A stretch of DNA of 64,000 nt, from contig DATKUL010000001.1 of the NCBI GenBank assembly GCA_035530615.1, positions 434,001 to 498,000 of the forward strand, in the 5' to 3' direction. This document shows, piece by piece, positions 2,722 through 42,054 of the stretch. The translations under genes and the position numbers were made by a program. The stretch is from Candidatus Paceibacterota bacterium (GTDB lineage Bacteria > Actinomycetota > Actinomycetes > Nanopelagicales > Nanopelagicaceae). The notes below the pieces were generated by a model that worked only from the letters and a program-made list of their open reading frames with translations, was not told the origin of the DNA and made no database searches. Each line of letters opens with the position of its first letter. Position 1 is the first letter of the stretch.

Positions 2722-4086
2722 TCAGAACCGGTAGAAGTGGTTGCGGATCTCAAAGTCCTCGTCCTGCGCATCAAAGGCCGCAGCCTCGGATCGACGTACG
2801 GCTATATAGGCCGTGGATAGCATCGTGCCCATCGTGTCGAGCAGGAACTGGTCCTTCTCGAGTTCGTCGAGCGCAGCGCTCATCGATGTTGGCAGAGGGC
2901 GCACTTTGCCACGCGCCAATTCCTCTGGCGACAGGCGTGCCGGATCGTGCTCACATGGCTCGCCCGGTTCCAACTTGCGCTGGATCCCGTCCAGCCCGCA
3001 GGCAATCAGGGCGCCTAGCGCAAGGTATGGATTCGCGCTTCCGTCCGAAGTCTTGAACTCAATGTTATAACTCTGTTCTTCGCGCTGGTAAAACGGGGAG
3101 CAAACGCGTAGCGCGGCCTCCTTATTGTCGAAACCCCATGCTGTAGTCGCCGATGCCCACGAGCCAGGCTGCAACCGACGATACGAGTTGTAACTTGGAA
3201 CCGTCAGGGCGACGAGCGCCGGTAAATGTTCCGCAATTCCGGCGATGAAATGTCGGCCGAGAGTGGAAAGGCCATGTTTCGCGGTCTTGTCATAAAGCAA
3301 ACTGCGCTTACCCGCAAGATCCCAGAGGCTAAAGTGCACGTGCGCGCCACTGCCGATCTGGTCGGGGTATGGTTTCGCGGCGAACGAGGCGAATAGCCCG
3401 TGTCGGAGCGCAACACCGCGGATGGTGTCGCGAAATTTCATCTGGTTATCAGCGGCGCCGAGCGCGTCGGTGTGCCGGATCGAAATCTCGTGTTGTCCGG
3501 CTCCAAATTCGTTGATGGCCTGTTCAACCACTATTCCTTGGGCCTCCAGCGCGCCCACTGTTTCGACCATGATTTCCGCGTTTAGATCGTGACCGATAGC
3601 ACTGTAGACCGGCGCGTGATCAGGAAAGTCGAATGGAACATAACGCCCGTCTTGCTCACGGGCCAAGTAGTACTCATTCTCGAAGGTCGCCTGCACGCTG
3701 AGTCCGAGGTTAGCCGCCCGATCGATGACACTTTTCAGATAGGACCGAGGACACACACCCCAGTCGAGCCGATCATGGCCGAGTTGATCACAAAGAACGC
3801 TGGCGCTGGCCGGTACCCATGGCAAGACGCTAAATGTCTCAAGATCTGGCACCAACCGGATTTCGCCAACCGGCTCCATTCCTCCGACATGGACCATCTG
3901 CTCTAGCATGTTAATCGACATCTGAGCACGTGTCAGACTCACACCTTCGAGCAACTTGTGTTCAAGTTGGGCCACGTGAATAGCCTTGGTACGGGCGACA
4001 CCGCTGAGGTCGCAGTACTCAAATCGGATAAGTTTGACTCCCGACCGCTGAGCGGCGGCAACAACTTCTTGAATGTTCATGACCAT
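2722..4086 (-). CDS. Glutamine-synthetase-like ligase (gamma-glutamyl-amine type)
   Basis: A member of the glutamine synthetase superfamily, 454 aa. The catalytic-domain metal ligands are visible: ENE at residues 136-138, E193 and E200 in NEFGAGQHE, and the histidine block GSGAHVHFS at 245-253. The substrate-binding stretches YNSYRRLQPGSWA and SANPYLALGA are present. The adenylylation tyrosine motif of housekeeping GlnA is not seen. Next to an amine/amino-acid permease and an amidohydrolase, it more likely ligates glutamate to an amine, as in PuuA- or IpuC-like enzymes, than assimilates ammonia. The ATG at 4080 (third codon) has better ribosome-binding-site spacing (GGAAAGAG) than the one at 4086. 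Confidence 0.85.
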   Translation of the reverse strand: MVMNIQEVVAAAQRSGVKLIRFEYCDLSGVARTKAIHVAQLEHKLLEGVSLTRAQMSINMLEQMVHVGGMEPVGEIRLVPDLETFSVLPWVPASASVLCDQLGHDRLDWGVCPRSYLKSVIDRAANLGLSVQATFENEYYLAREQDGRYVPFDFPDHAPVYSAIGHDLNAEIMVETVGALEAQGIVVEQAINEFGAGQHEISIRHTDALGAADNQMKFRDTIRGVALRHGLFASFAAKPYPDQIGSGAHVHFSLWDLAGKRSLLYDKTAKHGLSTLGRHFIAGIAEHLPALVALTVPSYNSYRRLQPGSWASATTAWGFDNKEAALRVCSPFYQREEQSYNIEFKTSDGSANPYLALGALIACGLDGIQRKLEPGEPCEHDPARLSPEELARGKVRPLPTSMSAALDELEKDQFLLDTMGTMLSTAYIAVRRSEAAAFDAQDEDFEIRNHFYRF

Positions 4087-4110
4087 CTCTTTCCGCTCCA
4101 GGCTTGTGGC

Positions 4111-4860
4111 CTAAAGCATCACGTCTCCGCCATTGGGGCCCAACGTTTGCCCAACGTAGTACGAGCCATCGGATGAAGCCAACAGCACAGCGGTCGGTGT
4201 GACCTCGTCGACTGTTCCGAATCGGCCGATCGGCAACTCCGCTAGCTTGGCGCTACGCCACTCTTCGGTCTCGCTGTCGAGCAGCGGTGTTTCGATAGGA
4301 CCAGGCGCGATGGCATTGACGAGCACACCCCGGCGGGAAACCTCGCGCGCAAGCGCCTTTGTGAATCCGATGACACCTGCTTTGCTCGCCGAGTAGTGTG
4401 CAACAGCTCCGCCACCGATCTGGCCGAGTTGCGATGCGATATTGATAATTCGCCCGTCACCCCTTTCGAGCATCTGCCCGATTAACACTCGCGTGCACAG
4501 AAAGGTGCCACGCAAATTCGTACTGATGACGCGATCCCAATCCTCAATCGGCATGTCTTCAAGTAGCGACTCGGTGAAGATGCCGGCGTTATTCACGAGA
4601 ATGTCGACTCGACCAAAGTGGGCGAGCGCCTGCGCTGCCATCGCGCGCACGCTCGCTTCGTCACTCACATCTGTACGAACAAACAGTGCATTCTGCCCAT
4701 GCCCCTCAATCGCCGCTATCACTTCAACTGCCTGTTCCTCACTCACCCTGTCGGCAATAACGATATCGGCGCCCTGATGCGCGAACTCAATAGCAATCCC
4801 TCGCCCGATACCGGAGGCTGCACCTGTGACAACAGCGATGCGGCCCGCAAGTTTGTTCAC
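4111..4860 (-). CDS. SDR-family NAD(P)-dependent oxidoreductase
   Basis: A classical 249-aa SDR resembling 3-oxoacyl-ACP reductase-like dehydrogenases. The cofactor loop VTGAASGIGR is at residues 11-20, NNAG at 90-93, and the catalytic S143, Y156 and K160 lie in an intact YSASK motif. The start is a GTG that overlaps the last base of the isochorismatase stop codon, so the genes are co-transcribed. It ends 24 bases before the GS-like gene. Its substrate is unknown. Together with the other SDR of the operon it suggests two oxidation steps on a hydroxylated compound. Confidence 0.87.
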   Translation of the reverse strand: MNKLAGRIAVVTGAASGIGRGIAIEFAHQGADIVIADRVSEEQAVEVIAAIEGHGQNALFVRTDVSDEASVRAMAAQALAHFGRVDILVNNAGIFTESLLEDMPIEDWDRVISTNLRGTFLCTRVLIGQMLERGDGRIINIASQLGQIGGGAVAHYSASKAGVIGFTKALAREVSRRGVLVNAIAPGPIETPLLDSETEEWRSAKLAELPIGRFGTVDEVTPTAVLLASSDGSYYVGQTLGPNGGDVML

Positions 4861-37007: not shown

Positions 37008-37081
37008 GGCTGGGTAGCTCAGTTGGTACGAGCGCGCGACTGAAAATCGTGAGGTCGACGGTTCGATCCCGTCCCTAGCCA
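37008..37081 (+). tRNA. tRNA-Phe (GAA)
   Basis: A 74-base cloverleaf with anticodon GAA in CTGAAAA. The acceptor GGCTGGG pairs with CCTAGCC (one G-T). Its 3' half is duplicated at 40400-40438, which marks it as the integration site of the adjacent island. The gene itself stays intact. Confidence 0.97.
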
Positions 37082-37082
37082 C
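37035..37082 (+). other. attL-like site (3' half of tRNA-Phe)
   Basis: The segment running from the anticodon stem to the base after the acceptor stem recurs at 40400-40438. The last 29 bases (37054-37082) are identical, and 37035-37044 is an additional 10-base match. This is the usual crossover region of tyrosine integrases in tRNA genes. Confidence 0.82.
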
Positions 37083-37240: not shown

Positions 37241-37261
37241 ATGGCGAGTACGAACAAATGA
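37241..37261 (+). CDS. Possible 6-codon leader peptide
   Basis: ATG at 37241 opens a six-residue frame (MASTNK, then TGA). AAAGGAAA lies just upstream at good distance, and its TGA overlaps the ATG of the next gene as ATGA. It may be a translational-coupling leader, since the following gene has no ribosome-binding site of its own. It could also be a remnant of a longer gene lost in rearrangement. Confidence 0.35.
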   Translation: MASTNK

Positions 37262-37644
37262 CCATCGTATGGCAGAAAGTTGTAGAACTACTGAATACCG
37301 GCGGATTCATACCTGCAGTAATACTCGTCGGACTATTAATCTTCAAAGATCAAGTAATAAAGTGGAGCGATTTTCTCCGTGAAGAGCGCAGGACTCGGAA
37401 GACGGATAAGTCGAACCTGATACAAAATGCCCGTTTTTTAGCCAGTGGTTACAGAAAGTCCGACCCCGCCAAGAATAGAGTCGACTTCACCGACGAGCAG
37501 GCATACATGGCTATCAGCTCTTACTTAGACGAGAGGGAGCGACTATTCATTCAACACCAGGATTCTGCGAATTTCCGCGAACGTCTAGAACGGCTCAACA
37601 ACGAGGTGAGCAGGTTAGCAAGGAAGTGGAAGGTCTACATCTGA
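37258..37644 (+). CDS. Small membrane protein of unknown function
   Basis: A 128-aa protein that I do not recognise. Residues about 13-30 (GGFIPAVILVGLLIFK) form one transmembrane segment. The rest is highly charged and probably helical, with a likely coiled coil near the C-terminus (about residues 85-125). The N-terminus would be outside or membrane-embedded and the tail cytoplasmic. It is island cargo located beside the attachment site. Its start overlaps the end of a six-codon frame that has the better ribosome-binding site. Confidence 0.5.
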   Translation: MTIVWQKVVELLNTGGFIPAVILVGLLIFKDQVIKWSDFLREERRTRKTDKSNLIQNARFLASGYRKSDPAKNRVDFTDEQAYMAISSYLDERERLFIQHQDSANFRERLERLNNEVSRLARKWKVYI

Positions 37645-37694: not shown

Positions 37695-38233
37695 TTACTC
37701 CACAGCCCTCGCAAAAATGATCGATGCGTTCTCTGCTTGTTGATTGGTGACATGGGCGTAGGTGGTCGCCGTAGTCATGGCATCCCAGTTGCCTAGTCGT
37801 TGAGCGACCACATTAAGCGGAGTCCCGGCTTCAAGAAGTACGGCCGCATGGAAGTGTCGGAGATCGTGAAAACAGTGAGAAGTTCTCCCTTGCGAGCGCC
37901 GGAGTAGATCGCCAATCGAAAGAACGCGAAAAGTCGGTGATCATTCAATGCTTCAAGAAACTTCTTCGCTTCTTCCCTTGTGAAGGGATCCAATCGCCGG
38001 GGAGTCCCTTTGGGAAGTTGAACTTTCTTTGCTGGATTGATCGCAAGCAGTCCGTCCACTTCGACGGCATAGGAGAGAGCCTTCTTCAAGATGGAAGCGT
38101 GGTACTGCACCGTTCTAGCTGATAGCAGCTCGCCATCCTCATTCCTAAATGATGGAAAGATAATCCCACTCATCGGAATAATTGACGGCGGAGACCAAGG
38201 GAAAGAATCACTCGGGGTTTCGGCAAGGGCCAT
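37695..38233 (-). pseudogene. Decayed tyrosine integrase
   Basis: A phage-type site-specific recombinase with an internal deletion and frameshift. The upstream part (from 38233) encodes the end of the core-binding domain (LSARTVQYHASILKKALSYA) and the first catalytic box SGARKGELL. The sequence then jumps, in another frame, to the second box FHDLRHFHAAVLLEAG and on to GNWDAMTTATTYAHV with the nucleophile Tyr, ending at the TAA at 37695-37697. Normally 45-60 residues lie between the boxes, and these are missing. The N-terminus is also short or absent. It lies near attL, as expected for the element's own integrase, and is almost certainly inactive. Confidence 0.82.
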
Positions 38234-38386: not shown

Positions 38387-38460
38387 AAATCGAGGGCTCC
38401 TTCCCGTGCGTTCTAGGTCGCCCAATCCTCGATTTCCACCGAAATTCACAGAAAATCGAG
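38387..38460. promoter_or_regulatory. Three AAATCGAG/CTCGATTT sites upstream of ImmA gene
   Basis: AAATCGAG at 38387-38394, CTCGATTT at 38428-38435 and AAATCGAG at 38453-38460. The first two match over 9 bases in opposite orientation, and the third lies just before the -35 box of the predicted promoter. This fits an autoregulatory operator of the XRE-domain protein encoded downstream. Confidence 0.45.
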
Positions 38461-38508: not shown

Positions 38509-39732
38509 ATGGCCGAGGAACTGGGAACCAGAATCCGCATGTTCAGAGAACGGCGCGGAATGTTGGCGAGGGAATTAGCCGAAGTCCTTGATCTATCGGA
38601 AGCCACCATTTCCGAAATCGAAAACAACAAAAGGCCAGTGAAGGCCTACGAAATTGCAGAAATTGCAGATGCTCTAGGAATATCCGCGATCGCGCTATTC
38701 AATCCCGAGTCTTTTTCCTCCTCAATTCCGGTGTTCGCAAGGGTGGGAGATTCAAGCCTCAGCACGGAGAAAGTGCAAAGAGCGGTGCGATGGTACGCGG
38801 ATTTCAAGGAAATTCTGGATCCATATGTTCAGCGGAATTTAGAATTAGTTGATGCTCGACCAAGGATCGAGATTGATAGCGACTACCTCGAGAAATCCAA
38901 GAAGTTGGCCGGTTGGTGCAATGACAATTTTGGTGATTGGCGCGGGTCGGAAGACAAATTCATGGCGCTCAAACTGGAGATTGAACAGAAATTTGCGTTC
39001 GATGTCGTCTTAATCGACGCAGGAGAAAACGAGATTCTAGGAGCCAGTCTCACGTCTTTTGAGTTTCCAATCATTTTTGTTAATTCGTCTATCTTAAAAC
39101 AACGAGCCCTGTTCACCTTGGCGCACGAACTTGGACACATGTTAAGCGTTACAGATTCTTCGCTGATTCTTGATCATGAATTGAAAGACAAAAATAGCGC
39201 TGAGAAATTTGCTAACGCATTTGCCGCAGAATTCTTAATGCCATCCAACCTTGTTAAACAGAGTTTCAAGACTCATAAATTTGCGGGGCAAGCGTTTGAA
39301 GAACTGCTAAGAGTTTGCGGGGTGAGTTGGCAATCTCTTGTGTACCGTATTCACAACCTGGGAATAATAGATGCCAGCGTAAGATCAGCCCTTCTCCAAG
39401 TCGGAGCGATCGGCTACCAAGGGCACGTTCATCGTCGCGACAACCTAGAAGTGGACCTGCTACCTCATGAAATACCCCTTAACGCTGCCCCTGGAAGCAT
39501 TCTTGCTGAAGCAGCAAAGAGAGCCTTCATCGCTGGGGATTTGGGGCTCAACCCAACGATTTCGATGTCCGGCTTTACTGAGGAACAATTAATTAACTTG
39601 TCCCCTATGCCGGATAAATCCACACCCGACCGCGAACTAGAAGTTGAACTTGAAGCACTCAAGAACATCGCCAGTGACTCAGAAAATTCCCAAGCCGATG
39701 AATCTATGGATGAAAATCGAGTCTACGCGTAA
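38509..39732 (+). CDS. XRE-HTH/ImmA-IrrE metallopeptidase protein
   Basis: A 407-aa protein with an N-terminal Cro/CI-type helix-turn-helix (residues 5-62; LDLSEATISEIENNKRPV) and a zinc protease domain of the ImmA/IrrE (DUF955, COG2856) family. The protease motif is HELGH at residues 206-210, with the downstream segment EKFANAFAAEFLMP expected to supply the third metal ligand. Such proteins act as antitoxin/repressors that are cleaved or that cleave a partner. The PIN-domain gene follows after two bases, so the two form a pair. The ORF opens at 38473, but the ATG at 38509 begins where HTH family members do. Confidence 0.88.
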   Translation: MAEELGTRIRMFRERRGMLARELAEVLDLSEATISEIENNKRPVKAYEIAEIADALGISAIALFNPESFSSSIPVFARVGDSSLSTEKVQRAVRWYADFKEILDPYVQRNLELVDARPRIEIDSDYLEKSKKLAGWCNDNFGDWRGSEDKFMALKLEIEQKFAFDVVLIDAGENEILGASLTSFEFPIIFVNSSILKQRALFTLAHELGHMLSVTDSSLILDHELKDKNSAEKFANAFAAEFLMPSNLVKQSFKTHKFAGQAFEELLRVCGVSWQSLVYRIHNLGIIDASVRSALLQVGAIGYQGHVHRRDNLEVDLLPHEIPLNAAPGSILAEAAKRAFIAGDLGLNPTISMSGFTEEQLINLSPMPDKSTPDRELEVELEALKNIASDSENSQADESMDENRVYA

Positions 39733-39734
39733 CC

Positions 39735-40268
39735 GTGGCTCAACCAGTTATTTATGACACCTGCTTATTGAGCCATATGGCCGAAATTGATCGATTACCA
39801 GTGTTGGAATACCTGTATTCAGATCGACCAACACCGAGATGGACGCCTGCCGTCAAGCGTGAAGTTGTAAAAGGCACGAAAGTCCCCAGAAGCCGAGATT
39901 TCTGTCATAGAATCCTGAACCTGACGTGGTTGGAAGATCCGATTGAGCCAAAAGATACTAGCGCGGTTCTCTATCTGCGGAGTCAACTGAGTAAGTCTGA
40001 TCAGTCTCAATCCGCAAATATGGGTGAGGCAGAGAGCATAATCTTGGCGAGAGAAGTATCCGGAAGTTTTATGACCAATGATTTTGGTGCCTATGGGTAC
40101 GCTGGAAGAACGGAGTACTTGGGTACAAGTCGGGTGCTGACAGCTTGCGATGCCCTCCACGAGGCATACAACTACAACCAGATGAGTCTTTCGGACGTTG
40201 AGCAGGCGCACGACCAGATTAGACTTGAGAGGAACATGATTTGTGAATGCCAATTCAAGTCATCGTAG
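39735..40268 (+). CDS. PIN-like nuclease-domain protein (DUF4411-like)
   Basis: A 177-aa protein beginning with GTG two bases after the ImmA gene. It has the acidic residues of a PIN-type ribonuclease: D8 in VIYDTCLLS, E98/E100 in MGEAESIILA and D116 in FMTNDFGAY. The GEAE motif is typical of PIN toxins, and DUF4411 proteins are known partners of XRE-COG2856 genes in predicted toxin-antitoxin pairs. The likely function is cutting RNA when freed from its partner. Activity is inferred; the fold assignment rests on the motif order and spacing. Confidence 0.72.
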   Translation: MAQPVIYDTCLLSHMAEIDRLPVLEYLYSDRPTPRWTPAVKREVVKGTKVPRSRDFCHRILNLTWLEDPIEPKDTSAVLYLRSQLSKSDQSQSANMGEAESIILAREVSGSFMTNDFGAYGYAGRTEYLGTSRVLTACDALHEAYNYNQMSLSDVEQAHDQIRLERNMICECQFKSS

Positions 40269-40399: not shown

Positions 40400-40438
40400 C
40401 GCGACTGAAGTCGACGGTTCGATCCCGTCCCTAGCCAC
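40400..40438 (+). other. attR-like site (tRNA-Phe remnant)
   Basis: The 29 bases at 40410-40438 equal 37054-37082, and 40400-40409 equal 37035-37044. The nine bases AATCGTGAG that separate these blocks in the real tRNA are missing here. The fragment has no 5' half and cannot make a tRNA. Confidence 0.82.
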
Positions 40439-40448
40439 AACCATTTTC

Positions 40449-40502
40449 CAACACAGAAGGCTCGGCCCCGACATTAATGTCGGGGCCGAGCCTTCTGTGT
40501 TG
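40449..40502. terminator. Perfect 54-bp palindrome, bidirectional terminator
   Basis: Two perfectly complementary 27-base arms with no loop (centre ATTAAT). The core is GC-rich (GGCTCGGCCCCGACAT and its complement). It ends 12 bases before the stop of the ice-binding gene and starts 11 bases after attR. It would terminate that gene on the minus strand and, before island insertion, the tRNA operon on the plus strand. There are no long T-runs, so its strength relies on the stem. Confidence 0.7.
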
Positions 40503-40514
40503 CGCTAATCGGAC

Positions 40515-42026
40515 CTAATCCCTACCAGAGTTGTGGCCTCTATTTATAGTCACTAGCGATCCAAGCACTGGCAGCGCCGGCACTCCTGCAACTATGGTGC
40601 CAGTAAAACCAATAGCGAAACTGGTTATGGGCCGAGACTTTTTGCTATTGGAATTTGCAGGTACCGTGAACTTGACCGTCACATTTGTTGCTCCTGTTGT
40701 AACGGCCTGCCATTTTCCACTGTGACCTGTCCGATTCCAAGCATAAAGAACTCCGCTTCCAGTTGCGGTCCCGGCGCCGTTAACGGATGAATAAGTGTTC
40801 AACGCCCCTTGGAATCTCCACTGCCGTGGCACCGTCCAGGTAACCTTGCCCGCAACCGCGGTTGAAGTGTCGAAAGTTGGAAGAGCCGATTTAATGAGAA
40901 GGTTGAAGCTGGCTCTCCCGAATGGAGAGATATAGGATCCTGCCCCGCTGACAACAACGCGGGATTGGACCTTCTCCTGAGTTCCAACAACCAACTCCAC
41001 TGGGTTGCTGGTGGAGGCCAGGCAGTAGCCATCACCCGGATAGGTTGCCAGCAAGTGATACTCGCCGTTTATCCAATTGGTGGTTACGACCGGACTTGTG
41101 AGTGGATAACTTCCCACGACTCCGGTTAATGGATTCTTATTCAAGGAAAATGAAATCGGTCCAGCACAAACTCCAGTACCAGATTTCGGAGATGCAACGG
41201 CGCTCAGAGTCAAAGTGGCACCGGGTTGAACACTGCCTGATGATGGGCTAGTTATTTGAACCCTGGTTTCCACCTTATTCGCGGTGCACGGTGACTTGAT
41301 GATTGAGTTTGCATTCAACGCCACTGAGCCACCCAGCGACAGAATGCGCCCCAACACCTTGGCATTTGCCCCGCCGGTGAAATTCGAATTTGTCAAAATC
41401 GTGCCTTTGAAATCTGAATTTGCGCCCAGCGTCGTAGTAGTCCCCACTTGCCAAAACACATTACATGCTTGTCCTCCATTGACGATATTGACCTGGCTTG
41501 AAGCGGCAGTATTCAGACTCATAGGGGTTTGCAAGATGAAGACTGCGTTGGGATTTCCTTGTGCGTCAAGTGTCAGTGTCCCAGTTACTCCCAAACCCGT
41601 TGGATTGGTGTAAATACCAGGAACCAAAGTTTGACCTCCAAGATCCGCCGTAAACACGGAAGCTGGCGCTGCAACAACAGCTAAGGAGTACGCAGTTGCC
41701 AGATCGGTCTTAGCTGCGATAGCCGTCGCATCGCCGAAATGATACGAACCAGAGAGTGAGAGTGTTCCGCTATCTGAATAGGTTACCGTCGGATATATGC
41801 CAAGGTCACCTTGGATTGTCGTTGCACCAGTGTTTGAAATCCCACCACCTGCTAACACTGCAAAGTTATTTGCCTGTCCAAGGGAAATAGCAGTTGCGGC
41901 AGATGCGACTGGGGTCGCAATTACCATGAGAGTTGTTGCGACCATAGAGATAATTGCCGCATAAGCAAATCTCGCCTTTCGCATCTTTTCTTTGGCTTCT
42001 TTAGCGATCTGAGTTTTTATGTTCAT
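40515..42026 (-). CDS. Secreted ice-binding-type protein (DUF3494)
   Basis: A 503-aa exported protein. The start is the ATG at 42026, four bases after GGAGAG; the ORF extends 12 bases further. A basic N-terminus and a hydrophobic core (about residues 22-45) form the signal peptide. Residues about 45-245 are the DUF3494 ice-binding domain: NNFAVLAGGGISNTG, GDLGIYP, GIYTNPTGLGVTGTLTLDAQ and GTILTNSNFTGGANAKVLGR. A probable Ig-like domain follows (about 255-355), then a beta-rich C-terminal region. No LPXTG or membrane anchor is visible, so it is probably released. The family includes both true ice-binding proteins and adhesin-like relatives. Confidence 0.85.
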   Translation of the reverse strand: MNIKTQIAKEAKEKMRKARFAYAAIISMVATTLMVIATPVASAATAISLGQANNFAVLAGGGISNTGATTIQGDLGIYPTVTYSDSGTLSLSGSYHFGDATAIAAKTDLATAYSLAVVAAPASVFTADLGGQTLVPGIYTNPTGLGVTGTLTLDAQGNPNAVFILQTPMSLNTAASSQVNIVNGGQACNVFWQVGTTTTLGANSDFKGTILTNSNFTGGANAKVLGRILSLGGSVALNANSIIKSPCTANKVETRVQITSPSSGSVQPGATLTLSAVASPKSGTGVCAGPISFSLNKNPLTGVVGSYPLTSPVVTTNWINGEYHLLATYPGDGYCLASTSNPVELVVGTQEKVQSRVVVSGAGSYISPFGRASFNLLIKSALPTFDTSTAVAGKVTWTVPRQWRFQGALNTYSSVNGAGTATGSGVLYAWNRTGHSGKWQAVTTGATNVTVKFTVPANSNSKKSRPITSFAIGFTGTIVAGVPALPVLGSLVTINRGHNSGRD

Positions 42027-42054
42027 GTTTCTCTCCATAGTGTCATTACTTTGA

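Follow-up and report, generated by a model that had tools for sequence, protein, structure and literature searches.

A probable toxin-antitoxin pair of a fused XRE-M78 protein and a PIN-fold protein on a small tRNA-Phe island

What kind of system is encoded by two adjacent genes, one for a fused helix-turn-helix (HTH) protease and one for a PIN-type protein, on a small island behind a tRNA gene? The genes lie in a window (the whole stretch of DNA that was analysed, 64,000 nucleotides), where ORF calls confirm the genes of the initial annotation, a 407-residue HTH-protease and a 177-residue PIN-type protein; both lie on the same strand, with 2 nt between the stop of the first gene and the start of the second:

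38509..39732, + strand: XRE-HTH/M78 gene, putative antitoxin and repressor (407 aa, ATG start, C-terminal helical domain)
39735..40268, + strand: PIN-fold gene, putative toxin (177 aa, GTG start; D8, E43, E98, D116)

Gene pairs of this kind belong to a class that is already known. Makarova et al. predicted in 2009 that COG2856-Xre fusions pair with PIN or RelE toxins (PMC2701414), and the mechanism of VapBC52 of M. tuberculosis, the closest one solved, did not appear until 2026. In VapBC52 (Rv2514c-Rv2515c; PDB 9VZY, 9VZZ) an antitoxin made of HTH, peptidase and C-terminal domains binds two PIN toxins and cleaves itself on single-stranded DNA, with an FR motif between the HTH and the peptidase domain as the probable cut site; VapC52 cuts tRNA and, when over-expressed, protects M. 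smegmatis from D29 (PMC13273310). RosmerTA systems are antiphage and combine ImmA-type antitoxins (RmrA) with varied toxins, PIN-like partners having been noted among them (PMC10440598). With VapBC52 and RosmerTA described, the earlier remark that little of the class is characterised is outdated. The pair in the window is very probably a toxin-antitoxin pair, and the best explanation is a type II module that would work like VapBC52 and RosmerTA. It has exactly the gene organisation of the class of Makarova et al., itself a prediction only: HTH_31 and Peptidase_M78 are fused, and a PIN-fold gene stands in the same operon.

In the 407-residue protein, Peptidase_M78 (PF06114, E 6e-14) and HTH_31 (PF13560, E 3e-11) are both above the Pfam cut-offs, and its best matches in the defence library are RmrA and CapP. 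The PADLOC models of RmrA match it with E-values down to 3e-23; most of these models also match in 52/52 relatives. Three parts are visible in the secondary structure of the AlphaFold2 model (pLDDT 80), which Foldseek matches to IrrE, PprI-ssDNA and CapP. The XRE-M78 family profile detects VapB52 (PDB 9VZY) across the peptidase domain with E 1.5e-13, and CapP and IrrE as well. For the HTH and linker (profile positions 4-108) the best of all PDB chains is 4ICH, residues 28-139, with E 7e-25; this entry is a deposited transcriptional regulator. The peptidase carries a zinc motif:

39124..39138, + strand: HELGH, residues 206-210 (third ligand, Glu232, at 39202-39204)

H206, E207, H210 and E232 are invariant in all 100 aligned XRE-M78 rows, so that H206, the residue named earlier, is conserved.

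Several characterised systems share parts of this design. VapBC52 has the same fusion of HTH, IrrE-type peptidase and C-terminal domain together with a PIN partner. RosmerTA shares an RmrA-type HTH-ImmA protease antitoxin with varied toxin partners; it differs in that the assayed RmrT of phage Kita is membrane-depolarising and no nuclease (PMC10440598). CapP/CapH and IrrE(PprI)/DdrO have the same peptidase family, sensing of DNA damage or single-stranded DNA, and cleavage of an XRE protein, but there the protease and its substrate are separate proteins and no PIN toxin is present.

The pairing is found well beyond the window. Searches with the single PIN sequence gave few or no matches, and the first distant PIN matches were already directly downstream of XRE-M78 genes. 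A six-sequence PIN profile, used for the genome search, has matches in 52 of the 395 sampled genomes of the class. A GTDB genome scan with the PIN alignment found 134 relatives; 80 were kept, which together with two viral contigs made 82 loci gathered by PIN sequence alone. These counts add a large subfamily to the toxin-antitoxin/defence class, and by sequence the XRE-M78/PIN subfamily is widespread in actinobacteria. An XRE-M78 ORF lies immediately upstream at 78 of the 82 loci (65 with a 4-nt overlap); at the other four, the PIN gene lies at a contig end (two loci), the XRE-M78 gene is frameshifted (one) or the PIN gene is a truncated remnant (one). Such pairing is beyond chance. Distances between PIN proteins and between peptidase domains are correlated (r 0.81), a co-divergence that also reflects shared descent; in partial correlations by domain, the toxin-binding C-terminal domain did not stand out. 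The toxin-antitoxin reading has good support in an almost obligate, co-diverging pair, in its conserved catalytic residues and in a solved relative, VapBC52 (PMC13273310).

XRE-M78 genes are also found with other neighbours. On plasmids, related genes at L016, L018 and L019 (about 2998-4566) are partnered by another PIN protein, one that is VapC-like, and the related gene at L015 (2154-4589) by proteins without a Pfam match. These four plasmid loci are cases of partner swapping.

The initial annotation had placed the pair in a tRNA island, and att repeats around a tRNA-Phe site bear this out:

37008..37082, + strand: tRNA-Phe, the integration target (ARAGORN)
37050-37082, + strand: left att repeat, the last 33 nt of tRNA-Phe (repeat search)
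37258..37644, + strand: ORF for a putative small membrane protein of 128 aa, island cargo
37698..38233, - strand: tyrosine integrase remnant (PHROG 1 integrase, E 3.5e-18)
40406..40438, + strand: right att repeat, a copy of the tRNA-Phe 3' end (97% identity, one mismatch)

Since the tRNA-Phe 3' end recurs at 40406-40438, the insert measures 3.36 kb. Its contents are the 128-residue putative membrane protein, for which Pfam, NCBIfam, PADLOC and PHROGs gave no confident family match, the broken integrase and the XRE-M78/PIN pair. The integrase remnant has suffered an internal loss and a frameshift; in another frame it shares 79% identity with the island integrase of G064, in the C-terminal part of the latter. 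Across the genus the tRNA-Phe site is a hotspot of integration, with no insert apparent after the tRNA in some genomes; the PIN gene itself occurs in 1 of 201 sampled genomes of the family. Other cargo at this site in the genus (L145:1770-2396; L146 and L147, minus strand) comprises an NYN-domain nuclease twice and a HIRAN-like protein once, the latter with a related integrase remnant. Next to the island, at 40515-42038 on the minus strand, lies a gene for a 507-residue Ice_binding (PF11999) protein that also has an Ig-like domain. Immediately outside the right att site, at 40449-40502, a perfect inverted repeat of 27 bp without a loop is possibly a terminator or a recombination remnant.

A small island with a broken integrase is a place where addiction could slow loss. 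The pair might mainly stabilise the island in this manner, with little or no phage protection, a rather doubtful alternative that would be compatible with a self-cleaving toxin-antitoxin module. Against it, phage protection is known for the relatives VapBC52 and RosmerTA, and some relatives of the pair adjoin Wadjet (L111) or DISARM DrmB (L063) genes, a neighbourhood seen without a background rate. Argonaute (pAgo) and ZacC genes also occur near relatives, at loci not individually traced and again with no background rate. By analogy with these systems, a phage-defence role for the toxin-antitoxin pair is plausible.

The PIN protein has zero matches in Pfam, NCBIfam and PHROGs. Its fold is seen in the AlphaFold2 model (pLDDT 88), for which Foldseek returns mostly PIN proteins (VapC, Nob1, PRORP) with probabilities up to 1.00 and TM-scores to the target up to 0.66, none of them at E<=0.001. 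In the family alignments D8, E43, E98 and D116 show little or no variation; D8, E98 and D116 had been proposed earlier as the acidic residues, and E43 is to be added. The identification of the protein with DUF4411 (PF14367), also made in the initial annotation, did not hold up: there is no match at E<=0.1 for the window protein and none in 50 family members, a search of this genome, run with no positive control, was negative, and the label is unsupported. Likeness to the PADLOC candidate PDC-S70 is limited to weak PIN profile matches, with E 9e-6 for the window protein and, for it and 32 of 50 relatives together, E-values only from 1e-3 to 1e-6 across about 100 residues.

RNA processing is the role of many PIN proteins, and the non-toxin enzymes PRORP and Nob1 are among the Foldseek matches. 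The two genes could on these grounds be a non-toxic regulatory pair, in which a stress-responsive repressor, the XRE-M78 protein, would be joined by a PIN RNase with a housekeeping or regulatory function. This is very unlikely, given that a patchy distribution, overlapping genes in the operon and a place on an island are all usual for toxin-antitoxin systems and that the upstream protein matches RmrA, CapP and VapB52.

If the PIN protein is a toxin, as relatives suggest, it belongs to a subfamily that annotation pipelines probably miss, since Pfam, NCBIfam and PHROGs do not match it. A profile of 50 PIN sequences matches no PDB chain at E<=1; the toxin is thus not detectably VapC52-like, and its RNA target may differ from that of VapC52.

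The XRE-M78 protein has its own peculiarities. The first is found in the linker between the HTH and the peptidase:

38737..38742, + strand: Ala77-Arg78 codons, candidate self-cleavage site

Arg78 is conserved in 96 and Ala77 in 88 of 99 XRE-M78 sequences, and the linker is modelled at a pLDDT of about 42. That residues are conserved in a linker with predicted disorder points to a site of recognition or cleavage. As in VapBC52, an X-Arg motif, here Ala77-Arg78, lies between the HTH and the peptidase domain, and a conserved arginine in a low-confidence linker matches what would be expected from cleavage before Arg in VapB52 and DdrO. IrrE, for example, cleaves DdrO between Leu106 and Arg107 (PMC8072749). 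When fused XRE-M78 proteins with other partners were compared by eye, Phe-Arg or Trp-Arg was seen near the same place (DFRKK, AFRKK, HFRSL, SWRAR). If the protease does fire by cutting before Arg78, X-Arg self-cleavage would be the way in which XRE-M78 antitoxins in general release their toxins, of whatever kind.

The second peculiarity is the absence of a cysteine switch. In VapB52 this is C229, after HExxH; no Cys occurs in the corresponding loop of the window protein or of 96 of the 98 members scored. An acidic residue is common at position 222. The aligned loop of PprI is likewise acidic and Cys-free, so the absence of the switch is not unprecedented; activation must either differ from that of VapB52 and CapP or resemble that of PprI. 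Perhaps the conserved acidic residue 222 restrains the protease as a zinc ligand.

Compared with VapBC52, then, the window has Ala-Arg in place of Phe-Arg, no cysteine switch, and a PIN protein that is not detectably VapC52-like and has no DUF4411 match. Because of the last two differences the pair is filed as COG2856-Xre/PIN and RosmerTA-like, not as a VapBC52 ortholog. At the sequence level the PIN subfamily and the lack of a VapB52/CapP-type switch are new to the class; of most use among the new points are how large the unannotated PIN subfamily is, that the switch is missing and that the linker arginine is conserved. They raise the questions of whether Arg78 in a disordered linker is a general mark of self-cleavage in XRE-M78 proteins, and whether the protease can be regulated without a cysteine switch.

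A self-cleaving XRE-M78 antitoxin with a PIN RNase toxin, in a type II operon carried as island cargo, is the likely arrangement. The XRE-M78 protein would bind an operator through its N-terminal HTH and so repress the operon, and, in the manner of VapB52, would use its HTH and C-terminal domains to keep the PIN RNase inactive. The trigger is probably single-stranded DNA, from phage replication or DNA damage, which the IrrE-like part would sense, switching on the zinc peptidase. The peptidase would then cut its own flexible linker at or beside Ala77-Arg78, detaching the HTH domain, so that repression and neutralisation would be lost together. The freed PIN protein would cut RNA, most likely tRNA as VapC52 does, and growth would stop (abortive infection). 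What the sequences show is the anatomy, the island, the conserved operon, the catalytic residues and the linker Arg; toxicity, neutralisation, trigger, self-cleavage, tRNA target and phage protection are carried over from relatives. The earlier suggestion of an HTH-protease that represses the operon until infection inactivates it is in line with such self-cleavage at Arg78.

In its fullest form the proposal makes one polypeptide the repressor, DNA-damage sensor, protease, substrate and antitoxin, in control of a PIN RNase of an undescribed subfamily, held off without a cysteine switch and firing before Arg78. This whole combination is offered tentatively, as possible and no more.

The other early suggestion, cleavage of a partner, is less favoured, the island encoding no separate XRE repressor. 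In a toxin-antitoxin module of that type the peptidase would cut a separate XRE repressor, as in ImmA-ImmR and IrrE-DdrO, and not itself. Makarova et al. proposed such a separate-substrate scheme (PMC2701414), with three components where the scheme favoured here has self-cleavage, and at L004 (226-1906) HTH and M78 are separate ORFs ahead of PIN, the stop being followed directly by an ATG; this split reflects a naturally three-gene form or else a nonsense mutation. Since the HTH is fused to the peptidase in most relatives and the linker Arg is conserved, the ORF list holds no further XRE gene inside the island, and VapB52 cleaves itself (PMC13273310), cleavage of a separate repressor is unlikely. 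Self-cleavage remains the preferred reading.

Repression by the XRE-M78 protein would call for an operator ahead of its gene. The sequence upstream gave no sigma-70 consensus promoter. A palindrome near the promoter region, GACTTTGGA/TCCGAAGTC, was set aside as a chance occurrence, since 66 of 300 shuffles gave as much. The better candidate is an 8-mer that occurs three times:

38387..38460: three copies of AAATCGAG, candidate operator (38387 +, 38428 -, 38453 +)

In the window sequence taken alone, an 8-mer as frequent as this arose in 6 of 2000 dinucleotide shuffles, and the triple AAATCGAG may be the operator.
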